Origin: Rhodobacteraceae bacterium HLUCCO07
Lineage (GTDB): Bacteria; Pseudomonadota; Alphaproteobacteria; Rhodobacterales; Rhodobacteraceae
DNA length: 64,000 nt
Assembly: GCA_001314705.1 (NCBI GenBank)
Contig: LJSU01000009.1
Coordinates: forward strand, 248,001-312,000
Direction: 5' to 3'
Shown: piece after piece, positions 11,023 to 49,520 of the stretch
Position numbering within the stretch: the stretch's first letter is position 1
How the letters are laid out: the number at the start of each line of letters is the position of its first letter
The notes under the pieces: generated by a model
The model's database searches: none
Told to the model about the DNA's origin: nothing
Seen by the model: only the letters and a program-made list of their open reading frames with translations
Program-made: the position numbers and the translations under genes

Positions 11023-11061
11023 ACAAGCTTAACCACTTGGTGCCAGAATAATATCGACCCC

Positions 11062-11140
11062 GGGGCCGACGGTCCTCCCGGCCCCTCGGTCGGCTTCCTC
11101 CCTGTCAGACTGGCCGCGCCCTTGGGCGCGGCGCTTTTCA
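11062..11140 (+). ncRNA. Candidate small RNA A: GGGGCCG-acggtcctcc-CGGCCCC hairpin, CCTCCCTGTCAGACT, then intrinsic terminator
   Basis: Stem 11062-11068/11079-11085 with CCTCC in the loop; motif 11097-11110; terminator stem 11113-11121/11124-11132 then GCTTTT; intergenic; shares the CCTCCCTGT..GACT block with 48339-48352. Confidence 0.45.
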
Positions 11141-11199
11141 GGGGAAAATTTCCCGATTTTACCTGTTGACGCAACGGCTTGAACGACATAGCGTTCCAA

Positions 11200-11264
11200 C
11201 AATTACTAAGTCGGCCGGTCCGACGGGGAGCAAAAACGGGAAAGAGGCCGGCTGGCCTCTTTTT
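11200..11264 (+). ncRNA. Candidate short transcript ending in a second strong terminator hairpin
   Basis: TTGACG-N17-TAGCGT at 11166-11194, hairpin GTCGG-ccggt-CCGAC at 11210-11224, AAAGAGGCC-ggct-GGCCTCTTTTT at 11241-11264; no convincing ORF. Confidence 0.35.
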
Positions 11265-11447
11265 CATTTGGAGACCACATCTCGGCACGGATGATCCACG
11301 CGAGACATGTCATCCTGCGCTGCCGCTCACCACGCAAGAATTTGCCGCTCGGTACTTTGCAGGGCTTGGATTTGCGCTGACATGCCGGTCGCAACGTGCT
11401 AGAGCCTGCGTCAAGAAACACATCGCAAGACAAGACGGAAAACAGAT

Positions 11448-43682: not shown

Positions 43683-46600
43683 TTATTCCGCCGCCTGCAC
43701 GGCGCGTTCGGGCGCGCCATTCAGCAGCCCCAGGATCTCCTCGCGCCGCTGCGCCGCCTTCTCGGCATTCGCCGCCTTGACCGGCCCGAACCCGCGCACC
43801 TTGAGCGGCAATTCCGCAAGCTCCGCGATCAGGTCACGGTTTGACCCGTCCACCCGGGGCAGCCACTCGGCCATGTCGGCCTCGTATTGCGCGATCATCG
43901 CACGTTCCGCCTTGCGTTCCTCGCTGCGCCCGAACGGGTCGAGCGCCGTGCCGCGCAGACGCTTCATGCCCGCCAGCAATCTGAACCACTTCACCATGCC
44001 GGGCCCGAATTCACGCTTGATCGGTCGCCCGTCCGATCCTTCTTTCGACAGGATCGGCGGCGCGAGGTGGAAGGACACCTTGAAATCGCCGTCAAACTCC
44101 GACTTGGCTTTCTCCAGCGTGCTCAGGTGAAGCCGCGCAACCTCGTATTCGTCCTTGTAGGCCAGAACCTTGTGATATCCCTTCGCAACCGCTTCCTTGA
44201 GGCGTGCATCCTCCACGCCATCGACCAGTCTGCGATAGCGCTTGGCCAGCCGGTTGCTCTGATAGGCCCTGAGATGTTCGGCCCGAAACGCGATGCGCTC
44301 CTCCAGTGTCTTGGGCTTGTCGACGACATCCGGGCTCAGCAGTTTCTCAACCTCCTGCGGGTGCAGAACCGCCCAACGCCCGATATCGAACGCCCTGAGG
44401 TTGCCCTCGATCGCAGTGCCGTTGAGGCGGATCGCATCGGTGATCGCCTCGCGGCTCACCGGGATGAGCCCCATCTGCCACGCTCCGCCGAACACCATCA
44501 TGTTGGAAAAGATGCTGTCGCCCAGCGTGACCCGCGCCAGGTCCGAAGCGTCGAACAGGCTCAGACGCTCGCGCAGCCGCGCCTGCAACTGCACTTCCAG
44601 CCGATCCACCGGGATGCGGAACTCGGTGTCTCGGGCAAAATCGCCGGTGATGATCTCGTGGCTGTTGATCACCGCCCCGGTGCGCCCCGTGCTGGTCAGG
44701 CCCAGCGTCTTGGCCCCGGCACTGACCACCAGGTCGCCGCCAATGAGCGCGTGCGCCTCGCCCGTGGCCACGCGCACCGCGTTGATGTCACCGGGCGCGT
44801 TCGCGATGCGCACGTGGATATGCACCGCGCCACCTTTCTGCGCCAGCCCGGCCATTTCCATCATGCCCGCGCCCAGCCCGTCGATCTGCGCCGCCTGCGC
44901 CAGAACAGCGCCGATGGTCACGACCCCGGTGCCACCGACCCCGGTGATCACCACGTTATGGGTGCCGTCGATCGCGGGCAGCTCCGGCTCGGGCAGGTCC
45001 GGCAGATCGAGCTCGGTCGTCGCCTCTTTCCTGACCTTGGCCCCTTCGAGCGTCACGAAACTCGGACAGAACCCCTTGAGACACGAGAAATCCTTGTTGC
45101 ACGAAGACTGGTCGATCGCGCGCTTGCGGCCCAGCTCGGTCTCGACCGGGACGATCGAGACGCAATTCGACTGCACCCCGCAATCGCCGCAGCCCTCGCA
45201 GACATCGGTGTTGATGAACACCCGCTTGTCGATATCGGGAAAGGTGCCGCGCTTGCGGCGGCGGCGTTTCTCGGCAGCACAGGTCTGGATGTAAAGAATG
45301 GCCGATACACCCTTGTATTCACGGAACTTCTCTTGCACCGCATCGAGATCCGCGCGCTCGTGTTTCTCGATCCCGGCCGGGAACTCCGAGAAATCCACAT
45401 CCTCTTTCTGGTCATACACGACGGCCACATGCTCGATCCCGAATGCCTTCAATTCGCGCGCGATCTGATGCGCCGAGAGTCCGCCCTCGTGGGTCTGCCC
45501 GCCGGTCATGGCCACGGCATCGTTGTAGAGGATCTTGTAGGTGATGTTCACACCACTCGCGACGGCCGCGCGGATGGCCTGAAGGCCCGAATGGTTATAG
45601 GTGCCGTCGCCCAGGTTCTGGAACACGTGGTCGCGCGTCGAAAACGGCGCCTCGCCGATCCAGTTGGCGCCCTCGCCGCCCATATGGGTGTATCCCAGCG
45701 TCTCGCGATCCATCCATTGCGCCATGAAATGACAGCCGATCCCGGCATAGGCCCGGCTGCCCTCGGGCACCTTGGTCGAGGTATTGTGCGGACAGCCCGA
45801 GCAGAAATAGGCAAGGCGCGTGGTGATTTCCTCGGCATTGTCGGCGCGCCTGGCTTCGTCCAGCTCGCTCAGCCCGGCCTTGATGCCATCCGTGGCGCGG
45901 CCTTCCTCGATCAGGATCTTGCCCAGCTTCTCGGCCACCATGACGGGATCGAGCGCCCAGCGGGTCGGGAACAGCTCTTCCCCGAACTGGCCCTTTTTCC
46001 AGCCATAGACCCGCCGCCCCTTGCGGTTGTCGAAAATCGCTTCCTTGATCTGCACCTCGAGGAGCTTGCGCTTTTCCTCGACCACGATGATCAGGTCGAG
46101 CCCCTCGGCCCATTCGTTGAACCCCTTCATGTCCAGCGGCCAGACCTGGCCCACCTTGTAGGTGGTGATACCCAGCCGTTCGGCCTCGGCCTCGTCGATC
46201 CCCAGAAGCCCGAGCGCATGTTCGAGGTCGAGCCAGTTCTTGCCATGGCTCACCAGCCCGATCTTCGCGCCCGGCTTGCCCCAGATGCGCTTGTCGATCT
46301 TGTTGGCATAGGCGAAGGCCTCTGCCGCAAAGCGCTTGTGGTCGAGCAGCCGCGCCTCCTGGTCGATCCGGTCATCAACCAGCCGGATATTCAGCCCGCC
46401 CTCGGGCATGGCGAATTCCGGCAGGGCAATCTGAACGCGATCGGGCCGGCCGTCCACCACCGCGGTCGCCTCGACCGTGTCCTTCATCGTCTTGAGACCG
46501 ACCCAGACCCCGGCAAAGCGCGACAGCGCGATCCCGTATATCCCGTAGTCGAGAATCTCCTGCACACCGGCCGGGCTCACCACCGGCATGTAGACATCGA

Positions 46601-47090
46601 CCAGTGCCCATTCGCTCTGGTGCAGCACGGTCGAGGATTCGCCAGTGTGATCGTCACCCATCGCCATCAGAACCCCGCCATGCGGGCTGGTGCCGGCCAT
46701 GTTGGCATGGCGCATCACGTCGCCGGTGCGATCGACCCCCGGCCCCTTGCCGTACCAGAGGCCGAAAACACCGTCGAACTTGCCCTCGCCGCGCAATTCC
46801 GCCTGCTGGCTGCCCCATAACGCCGTCGCGGCCAGATCCTCGTTCAGCCCCGGCTCGAACTTGATGTCATGTTCGGTCAGTATGGACTGCGCACGCGCCA
46901 TCTGAAGATCGACCGCCCCGAGCGGCGATCCGCGATAGCCCGTGACATACCCGGCAGTGTTCAGGCCCGCCTGCATGTCGCGTTGCTTCTGCGCCAGCAT
47001 CAGCCGCACAAGCGCCTGTGTCCCGTTCAAGAGAACCTGCGACTTTTCAAGGTCGTACCTGTCCTGCAATGTCACCTGTTGCTTGCTCAT
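43683..47090 (-). CDS. Fused indolepyruvate ferredoxin oxidoreductase (IorA-IorB type)
   Basis: 1135 aa; TPP/pyruvate oxidoreductase domains, FINTDVCEGCGDCGVQSNC 4Fe-4S motif, ITGVGGTGVVTIGAVLAQAA gamma domain. Confidence 0.95.
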   Translation of the reverse strand: MSKQQVTLQDRYDLEKSQVLLNGTQALVRLMLAQKQRDMQAGLNTAGYVTGYRGSPLGAVDLQMARAQSILTEHDIKFEPGLNEDLAATALWGSQQAELRGEGKFDGVFGLWYGKGPGVDRTGDVMRHANMAGTSPHGGVLMAMGDDHTGESSTVLHQSEWALVDVYMPVVSPAGVQEILDYGIYGIALSRFAGVWVGLKTMKDTVEATAVVDGRPDRVQIALPEFAMPEGGLNIRLVDDRIDQEARLLDHKRFAAEAFAYANKIDKRIWGKPGAKIGLVSHGKNWLDLEHALGLLGIDEAEAERLGITTYKVGQVWPLDMKGFNEWAEGLDLIIVVEEKRKLLEVQIKEAIFDNRKGRRVYGWKKGQFGEELFPTRWALDPVMVAEKLGKILIEEGRATDGIKAGLSELDEARRADNAEEITTRLAYFCSGCPHNTSTKVPEGSRAYAGIGCHFMAQWMDRETLGYTHMGGEGANWIGEAPFSTRDHVFQNLGDGTYNHSGLQAIRAAVASGVNITYKILYNDAVAMTGGQTHEGGLSAHQIARELKAFGIEHVAVVYDQKEDVDFSEFPAGIEKHERADLDAVQEKFREYKGVSAILYIQTCAAEKRRRRKRGTFPDIDKRVFINTDVCEGCGDCGVQSNCVSIVPVETELGRKRAIDQSSCNKDFSCLKGFCPSFVTLEGAKVRKEATTELDLPDLPEPELPAIDGTHNVVITGVGGTGVVTIGAVLAQAAQIDGLGAGMMEMAGLAQKGGAVHIHVRIANAPGDINAVRVATGEAHALIGGDLVVSAGAKTLGLTSTGRTGAVINSHEIITGDFARDTEFRIPVDRLEVQLQARLRERLSLFDASDLARVTLGDSIFSNMMVFGGAWQMGLIPVSREAITDAIRLNGTAIEGNLRAFDIGRWAVLHPQEVEKLLSPDVVDKPKTLEERIAFRAEHLRAYQSNRLAKRYRRLVDGVEDARLKEAVAKGYHKVLAYKDEYEVARLHLSTLEKAKSEFDGDFKVSFHLAPPILSKEGSDGRPIKREFGPGMVKWFRLLAGMKRLRGTALDPFGRSEERKAERAMIAQYEADMAEWLPRVDGSNRDLIAELAELPLKVRGFGPVKAANAEKAAQRREEILGLLNGAPERAVQAAE

Positions 47091-47297: not shown

Positions 47298-48203
47298 ATG
47301 GATTGGGACAAACTCAGAATATTTCACGCGGTGGCCGACGCGGGATCGCTCACCCATGCCGGTGATGCGCTCCATCTGAGCCAGTCTGCGGTCTCCAGAC
47401 AGATTCGTTCGCTCGAGGAGACCTTGAACACCACCCTCTTTCACCGCCATGCGCGCGGGCTGATTCTCACCGAACAGGGCGAGCTTCTGTTCGATGCGAC
47501 CCGCGCGATGCTCAAGCGCCTCGACGCGGCCACCGCGCGCATACGCGACAGCGAGGACGAGGTTTTCGGCGAGTTGCGCGTGACCACGACCACCGGGTTC
47601 GGCACGCTCTGGCTCGCACCCCGCCTGACCGCCCTTTACGAGAAATACCCCGAACTCAAGATCGACCTCATGCTCGAAGAGCGTGTGCTCGACCTTCCCA
47701 TGCGCGAGGCCGATGTCGCCATCCGCATGAAAGAGCCCTCACAGGCCGATCTGATCCGCAAACGGCTCATGAGCGTCCGGATGCGGCTCTACGCCTCGCC
47801 CGAGTATCTCGCCCGCGCGGGAACGCCGCAATCCCTCGACGATCTGAGCAGGCATCGCCTGATCTGTCAGAATGTCGGCGCCACCCAGGTCGGCGCGGGC
47901 GCCACGCTGGTCCAGGCGCTCTTGAGCAACGAGATCTCTTCGCTGCTGACCGTGAACAACTACTACGGTGTGCTTCAGGGCGTGCTGCATCATCTGGGGA
48001 TCGGCGTCCTGCCCGATTACGTGATCCAGGAGTTTCCGAATCTGCAACAGGTTCTGCCCGAGGTCGACTCGGGCGACATACCGGTCTTCCTCGCCTATCC
48101 CGAAGAGTTGCGACAATCCAAAAGGATCGCCGCATTCCGCGATTTCGTGCAGGAAGAGATCACGATCTATCGCAAACGCGTTAAAAATCAGGCGGCTGAG
48201 TAA
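47298..48203 (+). CDS. LysR-family transcriptional regulator
   Basis: MDWDKLRIFHAVADAGSLTHAGDALHLSQSAVSRQIRSLEETLNTTLFHRHARG. Confidence 0.96.
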   Translation: MDWDKLRIFHAVADAGSLTHAGDALHLSQSAVSRQIRSLEETLNTTLFHRHARGLILTEQGELLFDATRAMLKRLDAATARIRDSEDEVFGELRVTTTTGFGTLWLAPRLTALYEKYPELKIDLMLEERVLDLPMREADVAIRMKEPSQADLIRKRLMSVRMRLYASPEYLARAGTPQSLDDLSRHRLICQNVGATQVGAGATLVQALLSNEISSLLTVNNYYGVLQGVLHHLGIGVLPDYVIQEFPNLQQVLPEVDSGDIPVFLAYPEELRQSKRIAAFRDFVQEEITIYRKRVKNQAAE

Positions 48204-48297
48204 CAGGTTAACCAGATATGCGCCTCCCGCATATCGGCCATGCTGCGGTCGCAGCATCATTGGGCTTGAACGTGCAGGATGCGCCACTTATTTGAAC

Positions 48298-48386
48298 TTC
48301 TGACGGTGATGTTCGATGGTTATCGCATCACTTTCATACCTCCCTGTTGGACTTAGGCCGAGCTTAGTGCTCGGCCTTTTTTTTTC
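48298..48386 (+). ncRNA. Candidate small RNA B: nested hairpin, single-stranded UUUCAUACCUCCCUGUUGGACUU, intrinsic terminator
   Basis: GTGATG-tt-CGAT-ggtt-ATCG-CATCAC stem 48306-48331; CCTCCCTGTTGGACT 48339-48353; terminator AGGCCGAGC-ttagt-GCTCGGCCT-T(9) 48355-48386; RpoH-like CTTGAAC-N12-CCACTTAT upstream (48265-48291). Confidence 0.6.
48355..48386 (+). terminator. Strong intrinsic terminator
   Basis: Perfect 9-bp stem, 5-nt loop, run of T. Confidence 0.93.
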
Positions 48387-48561: not shown

Positions 48562-49053
48562 TCAGCGCTTGGAGAACTGGAAGCTCCGGCGCGCCTTGCG
48601 CTTGCCGTATTTCTTCCGCTCGACCACGCGGCTGTCGCGGGTCAGGAAGCCCGCGGCCTTGAGCGCGCCGCGCAGGCCCGGATCATAAAGCTGAAGCGCC
48701 TTCGAGATGCCGTGCTTGACCGCGCCGGCCTGGCCCGAAAGCCCGCCGCCCTTGACGGTCGCCATCACGTCGAACTGGTCTTCCACGCCGGCCACCGAAA
48801 ACGGCTGGCGCAGGATCATCTGCAACACGGGACGGGCGAAATACTTGCCCATTTCCTTGCCGTTCACGACGACCTTGCCCGAGCCGGGCTTGATCCAGAC
48901 GCGGGCCACCGCATTCTTGCGCTTGCCGGTGGCATAGGAGCGGCCAAATTCGTCGCGCACGGGCTCCCGCGGGGTTTCGGCTTCCGCAACGGGCGTGGCG
49001 GCCGCTTCGGCCACCTGGCCCAGCTCTTCGAGCGAGTTCACTTGATCGGTCAT
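48562..49053 (-). CDS. rpsI: 30S ribosomal protein S9
   Basis: [27 protein letters not shown]...[24 protein letters not shown]. Confidence 0.99.
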
Positions 49054-49058
49054 CTCTC

Positions 49059-49520
49059 TCAGCTCCGCGTGTTTTTCTTGTTCATGGATTTCACATCCAG
49101 CACATCGGGATTCTGTGCCTCATGCGGATGCTCGGCCCCGGCATAGACGCGCAGGTTGGTCATCTGCTTGCGCGACAGGCGATTGCCCGGCAACATGCGC
49201 TTGACCGCCTGCATCACCAGCCGCTCGGGATGCGCGCCTTCGAGGATCTGCTCGGCGGTCCGGCTCTTGATCCCGCCGGGATAGCCGGTGTGCCAGTAAT
49301 GCACCTTGTCGGTGCGCTTCTTTCCGGTCATCTGCACCTTGTCGGCATTGATGACGATGACATTGTCGCCCATGTCCATATGCGGCGTGAAGCTGGCCTT
49401 GTGCTTGCCGCGCAGACGCGTGGCGACGATCGAGGCAAGACGACCAAGAACAACGCCCTCGGCGTCGATCAGGATCCATTTCTTGTCGATATCCGCAGGC
49501 GTTGCAGAAAAGGTTTTCAT
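49059..49520 (-). CDS. rplM: 50S ribosomal protein L13
   Basis: [47 protein letters not shown]...[13 protein letters not shown]. Confidence 0.99.

Follow-up and report, generated by a model that had tools for sequence, protein, structure and literature searches.

What small RNA may be encoded behind the LysR-type regulator gene ending at position 48203 of the window (the whole 64,000-nucleotide stretch of the Rhodobacteraceae bacterium HLUCCO07 genome that was analysed), and which mRNAs could it regulate? A preliminary description had proposed a conserved, stress-sigma-type, anti-Shine-Dalgarno small RNA, and this proposal is supported by conserved pairing and an invariant CCTCCCTGT. The element is almost certainly an orthologue of SorY (RF02651, formerly RSs1543) of Rhodobacter sphaeroides, as evidenced by the covariance model, the gene order behind the same LysR gene and the invariant seed. 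With a probability of about 0.8, judged from sequence comparisons, SorY acts, in the manner of AbcR, as an anti-Shine-Dalgarno silencer of transporter mRNAs, for which both the pairing and the LysR control are predicted. The name SorY and its published physiology in R. sphaeroides are already known. New are the absence of takP from most family genomes, the seed complement before putative solute-binding-protein genes, and a predicted LysR-type operator with parallels in trxB-LysR-sRNA arrangements. SorY is present in about 95% of the sampled family genomes, yet it has been studied in one species and on one target that most relatives lack.

Identity and structure of the small RNA

An Rfam scan, which the preliminary description had suggested as a check, was run at a lax threshold. 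The SorY model RF02651 matches positions 48303–48384 over its full length (model positions 1–83 of 83) with 66.3 bits and an E-value of 2.8e-13, below the curated cut-off of 111 bits. Among 299 family genomes a single one, which appears to be R. sphaeroides 2.4.1, exceeds this cut-off, which thus reflects a narrow seed alignment rather than the identity of the RNA. There (genome G046), the SorY match at 1,632,645–1,632,727 reaches 115 bits; the genome is taken to be strain 2.4.1 because these coordinates fit the mapped SorY start at 1,632,642 (PMC6238624). Matches to RF02651 at E ≤ 0.001 are found in 285 of the 299 family genomes, although some of them may be SorX. A model built from the family would detect SorY nearly everywhere.

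The sole match in the window above its cut-off is to SorX (RF02784), at 48327–48382 with 48.9 bits against a cut-off of 46.6 bits, and the element could on this ground be taken for a SorX paralogue, the SorY score being 66.3 against 111 bits. The SorY model, however, scores higher and covers the full length, whereas the SorX model is aligned to the element with its 5' hairpin deleted. The true SorX of this genome lies elsewhere (C19:70751–70822, minus strand, 77.8 bits), behind an OmpR-type response regulator gene as in R. sphaeroides. The window element does not lie in the 3' UTR of an OmpR-type gene; its neighbour is the LysR gene, which is common to SorY and the window element. The SorX-paralogue reading, the least probable of the alternatives weighed here, is already contradicted by gene order and score. 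SorX of R. sphaeroides (RSs2461) resembles the element in its seed, ACCUCCCUGUUGGAC, and in its terminator, but it is processed out of the 3' UTR belonging to an OmpR-type gene (PMC6238624), has a different 5' hairpin and targets potA. SorY of R. sphaeroides shares with the element the LysR neighbour, the length, the hairpin-seed-terminator layout, an identical seed and an RpoH-type promoter; the window element differs in its diverged 5' hairpin, its score below the Rfam cut-off and the absence of takP from its own genome. Other RNA families (suhB/MmgR, Hrs12, Betaproteobacteria toxic sRNA and others) give weak Rfam matches, which were rejected: all of them fall below cut-off and are based mainly on the CCTCCCT-terminator part.

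The window contains a third SorX-like element at 11057–11138 on the plus strand (28.4 bits, E-value 7e-5 in a local scan), comprising TTCCTCCCTGTCAGACT and a terminator and adjoining a HerA-like ATPase gene on the opposite strand; weak SorX matches of 26–35 bits occur in many relatives too. At 11177–11270 (plus strand) a CTTGAAC motif is followed about 60–90 nt later by a terminator (AGAGGCCGGCTGGCCTCTTTTTC), so that a further small RNA is possible there, and Rfam gives no match for this segment.

The predicted SorY transcript extends from about 48300 to 48384 on the plus strand, its 5' end being set by alignment with the mapped start at 1,632,642 in R. sphaeroides (PMC6238624); the resulting length of about 85 nt agrees with the 85–90 nt estimated in the preliminary description. 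The structural elements described there are likewise in place. The 5' stem-loop (48301–48336, plus strand) contains the nested hairpin formed by GTGATG (48306–48311) and CATCAC (48326–48331) enclosing CGAT (48314–48317) and ATCG (48322–48325). It is followed by the unpaired segment TTTCATACCTCCCTGTTGGACTT (48332–48354), within which the single-stranded seed TCATACCTCCCTGTTGGACT with the anti-Shine-Dalgarno core CCTCC occupies 48335–48354 of the plus strand. An intrinsic terminator (48355–48385, plus strand), comprising a 9-bp stem (48355–48377) and a T run, is kept in all orthologues listed and is among the best terminator-like sites of the region.

A 94-nt stretch covering the element folds at −32.8 kcal/mol, compared with −19.0 ± 3.2 kcal/mol for shuffled sequences (z −4.3; none of 200 as good), and 98% of 128 orthologues fold at least 1 SD better than their shuffles (median z −2.7), though the sequence of the 5' hairpin varies. 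Its pairing is conserved: native arms of the 5' hairpin give on average −14.7 kcal/mol, against −9.4 kcal/mol for arms swapped between species. In a set of 16 closer sequences, pairing is intact in 95% of pair cells and both sides have changed in ten; the covariation score is not reached by any shuffle, the number of compensated pairs in this test being modest. RNAalifold did not recover the 5' hairpin from 65 diverse orthologues, owing to its misalignment by MAFFT; the hairpin was assessed instead by single-sequence folds, arm swapping and the closer 16-sequence set. The single strand UCAUACCUCCCUGUUGGACU is invariant in all 65 aligned orthologues, a set that was picked for carrying the seed core, so the unbiased figure is that obtained from the LysR loci (75 of 79, see below). 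The absence of stem covariation and of motif conservation, which had been named as grounds for abandoning the small-RNA proposal, is thus not observed: the stem pairing is kept through sequence change and CCTCCCTGT is invariant.

The LysR gene, promoter and putative operator

The LysR-type regulator gene directly upstream of SorY (47298–48203, plus strand) encodes a protein of 301 aa, and orthologues 71–83% identical to it precede SorY in R. sphaeroides and relatives, the regulator at the R. sphaeroides SorY locus being 79% identical. No NCBIfam equivalog scores above cut-off for this protein; among solved structures, 9hh1 is a full-length LysR relative. A set of 80 LysR orthologues was gathered without using the RNA, the records that name a genus belonging to Rhodobacteraceae and relatives. 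At 75 of the 79 loci having downstream sequence, CCTCCCTGT followed by a terminator is found within 600 nt after the LysR stop codon, the RNA being located 111–302 nt downstream of it; at a 76th locus (L165) CCTCCCTGT is farther away. In the window the LysR-SorY pair is flanked by a divergent indolepyruvate ferredoxin oxidoreductase-like gene (43683–47090, minus strand) and by convergent rpsI-rplM (48562–49520, minus strand). The other loci compared for gene order showed no rpsI in their flanks.

The RpoH-like element reported earlier, CTTGAAC (48265–48271) separated by 12 nt from CCACTTAT (48284–48291), was found as described. Alignment with relatives additionally defines the −10 element as CTTATT (48287–48292), located 18 nt after CTTG, so that the predicted RpoH-type promoter CTTGAAC...CTTATT occupies 48265–48292 of the plus strand. 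It is conserved in orthologues: the pattern CTTG-N16..20-C[CA]TA is present in 89 of 128 orthologous upstream regions against 1.0 expected, and 84 of the 89 have the N18 spacing, which is also that of the window form, CTTG-N18-CTTA. SorY of R. sphaeroides is RpoHI/RpoHII-dependent (PMC5036791, PMC8307010).

The RNA lies on the same strand as the LysR gene and, in relatives, 111–302 nt beyond its stop codon; this would also fit a mere 3' untranslated end of the LysR mRNA with its terminator and no promoter of its own, and SorX itself is released from a 3' UTR. The conserved promoter of fixed spacing just before the predicted start makes this very improbable, as does R. sphaeroides SorY, which has its own mapped start site and undergoes no processing.

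The region between the LysR gene and the promoter contains the palindrome ATGC-N7-GCAT (48218–48232), which forms the core of a second conserved block upstream of the promoter. This palindrome has the T-N11-A form of LysR-type sites. It is present at 101 of the 128 orthologous loci against 0.2 expected, and other spacings give no comparable count. It is likely bound by the upstream LysR protein, and a control of SorY by the neighbouring LysR through this putative operator is favoured, at somewhat lower confidence than the silencer role. Another conserved dyad, CATGCTGC...GCAGCAT (48239–48257), is located between the palindrome and the −35 element, in columns −26 to −8 before the −35 that are conserved in 110 aligned orthologues, and may also have a regulatory function. 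The palindrome differs from the published VtlR box GCAT-N3-TG-N3-T, a point against the AbcR-like reading; that box was itself considered as the SorY operator and rejected, being found at 14 of 128 loci (0.7 expected).

Predicted targets of the seed

SorY of R. sphaeroides is transcribed from its own RpoHI/RpoHII-dependent promoter, is induced under singlet-oxygen stress, remains unprocessed and binds Hfq; it lowers takP and thereby limits malate uptake. In R. sphaeroides the takP start region has the sequence GTCCACAAGGGAGGAATG, and the solved structure 2HZK/2HZL confirms the protein behind it as TakP. This region pairs with the seed (GTCCAcaAGGGAGGaATG) at −24.2 kcal/mol, a value reached by one of 200 shuffles keeping the CCUCC core, the candidate pairing site being GTCCACAAGGGAGG. 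A scan with GTCCAACAGGGAGG at up to 2 mismatches places takP among 26 sites in the R. sphaeroides genome. Of 101 family genomes, however, only 13 contain TakP and the other 88 lack it; the HLUCCO07 genome has no TakP orthologue at E ≤ 1e-120. TakP therefore cannot be the general target. The nearest TakP relative looked at in this genome is 28% identical, with a start region whose pairing does not surpass that of shuffles.

Target scans were carried out as pattern searches. Exact AACAGGGAGG sites in the HLUCCO07 genome occur solely opposite SorX and SorY, on their antisense strands. Three of the sites fetched from this genome precede start codons; the genes concerned encode a family-5 peptide-binding protein, a binding protein of the TAXI type and a small protein. 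The start region of the peptide-binding-protein gene (C8:193879) reads GTCCAACAAGGAGTGAGACATG, and its duplex with the seed has an energy of −20.1 kcal/mol, which none of 200 core-keeping shuffles equals. Orthologues of this protein occur in 44 of 61 genomes. In 29 orthologue start regions, CCAACAAGGAG is kept at 76–100% per base while the flanks are mostly at 34–55%, and CCAACA is present in 18 of the 29 against 0.5 expected. Since takP is missing, this gene appears to be the best target candidate in the HLUCCO07 genome. The takP and TAXI genes were rejected as conserved targets: the extended site is not retained in their orthologues, which makes part of the regulon species-specific or a product of chance.

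The extended pattern TCCAACA[AT]GGAG-N3..9-ATG has 60 matches in 121 genomes, whereas its reversed control has none and an extension shuffled around an unchanged Shine-Dalgarno core has 11. Thirty fetched motif matches yielded 23 ORFs of at least 90 aa, of which 20 encode solute-binding proteins; by inspection, none of six control ORFs of at least 90 aa looks like one. Fourteen of the 20 transporter genes are orthologues of a single peptide-binding family, and the other six encode a PotD-like protein (R. sphaeroides), a glycine-betaine-binding protein, a sugar-type binding protein, a further peptide-binding protein and two TRAP proteins. Pfam searches covered these six plus a single member of the fourteen, and the remaining thirteen were assigned by their start sequences. 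In R. sphaeroides a strict seed-complement site (G046:C4:1026029–1026049, minus strand, locus L318) precedes the potD-like gene, which follows the permease genes in a pot-type operon; the published SorX target is potA. SorX carries the same seed, so these targets are not assignable to SorY alone, and the two RNAs probably share targets.

Together, these patterns make it probable that the seed acts on solute-binding-protein start regions. The invariant strand could instead owe its conservation to Hfq binding, RNase E access or a role in the terminator, the element still being SorY but with a few targets of its own in each species, such as takP in R. sphaeroides. This would fit the loss of the takP complementarity in TakP orthologues, the TAXI site not kept in orthologues, and a strand common to SorX and SorY whose published targets nevertheless differ. 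It is an unlikely explanation, since the extended reverse complement is strongly enriched at transporter-gene start codons and the site is kept in one transporter family across genera; a site for Hfq or RNase E would predict neither pattern.

In the proposed mechanism, with the seed as an mRNA-pairing element, the exposed strand CCUCCCUGUUGGACU would pair with the Shine-Dalgarno sequence and the preceding 7–8 nt (consensus UCCAACA[A/U]GGAG) of mRNAs for periplasmic solute-binding proteins. Such pairing would block their translation and lead to less nutrient import during stress, while the neighbouring LysR would control SorY through the ATGC-N7-GCAT operator. The conserved seed, target class and operator define a testable general circuit in which stress and a LysR signal would shut down nutrient import. 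If this is true, the takP effect in R. sphaeroides is a local case of a broad transporter regulon.

Relation to AbcR and other known RNAs

The gene order at the SorY locus has parallels outside the family. In three other alphaproteobacterial families, SorX-model matches are located 177–234 nt behind a LysR gene whose product is 49–51% identical to the window LysR and which adjoins a trxB-like gene; ATGC-N7-GCAT is present between the LysR gene and the sRNA at these loci too. In Agrobacterium, the AbcR genes are downstream of the LysR gene vtlR, which itself lies behind trxB (PMC7486931). In Sinorhizobium meliloti, AbcR1 transcription is driven by LsrB and that of AbcR2 by RpoH1, the latter from CTTGAA-N16-CCTATAT; the two RNAs silence transporter mRNAs through anti-Shine-Dalgarno motifs (PMC8844928). 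This arrangement suggests that trxB-LysR-sRNA is one module across alphaproteobacterial families.

AbcR1 and AbcR2 (alpha-r15) of Sinorhizobium, Agrobacterium and Brucella resemble SorY in several respects (PMC8844928, PMC7486931, PMC3712013, PMC5461406): a LysR gene, lsrB or vtlR, adjoining or upstream in Sinorhizobium and Agrobacterium, an RpoH1-type promoter (AbcR2), anti-Shine-Dalgarno motifs, Hfq binding in Sinorhizobium and periplasmic transport-protein targets of the kind predicted for SorY. Unlike SorY, they are about 115–120 nt long, carry CUCCCA and GUUCCC motifs in the first hairpin and behind it, and are often tandem. The Rfam matches to the window up to an E-value of 1 include no AbcR family, if indeed Rfam contains one. 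NfeR1 of S. meliloti is likewise stress-induced and silences solute-binding-protein mRNAs via anti-Shine-Dalgarno motifs, but it is 115 nt long, has three identical motifs and is not Hfq-bound (PMC8844928). The anti-Shine-Dalgarno class named in the preliminary description thus stands, while the CcsR kinship suggested there has to be revised. CcsR1–4 of R. sphaeroides are also stress-sigma-controlled and Hfq-bound, but they are co-transcribed with ccaF1, have other targets and do not appear among the window's Rfam matches. Functionally, the element stands closest to SorX and, as judged from gene order and predicted targets, to AbcR.

On balance, SorY may be the Rhodobacteraceae counterpart of the LsrB/VtlR-linked AbcR RNAs. 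The two would then represent one ancient alphaproteobacterial module, in which a redox-type LysR gene adjoins an anti-Shine-Dalgarno RNA that silences nutrient-binding-protein mRNAs, from rhizobia to roseobacters; this reading is favoured, if less firmly than the LysR control of SorY itself. If true, the singlet-oxygen RNAs SorX and SorY form an RpoH-controlled branch of the AbcR-type module. If correct, it also joins the literatures on the Rhodobacter singlet-oxygen RNAs and the rhizobial AbcR RNAs, which no open-access paper found mentions together. Tandem SorX/SorY-like matches about 170–220 nt apart, recalling tandem AbcR1/AbcR2, are present in some relatives (G001:C9:60608–60866, G302:C398:4967–5215 and G303:C183:9526–9823).
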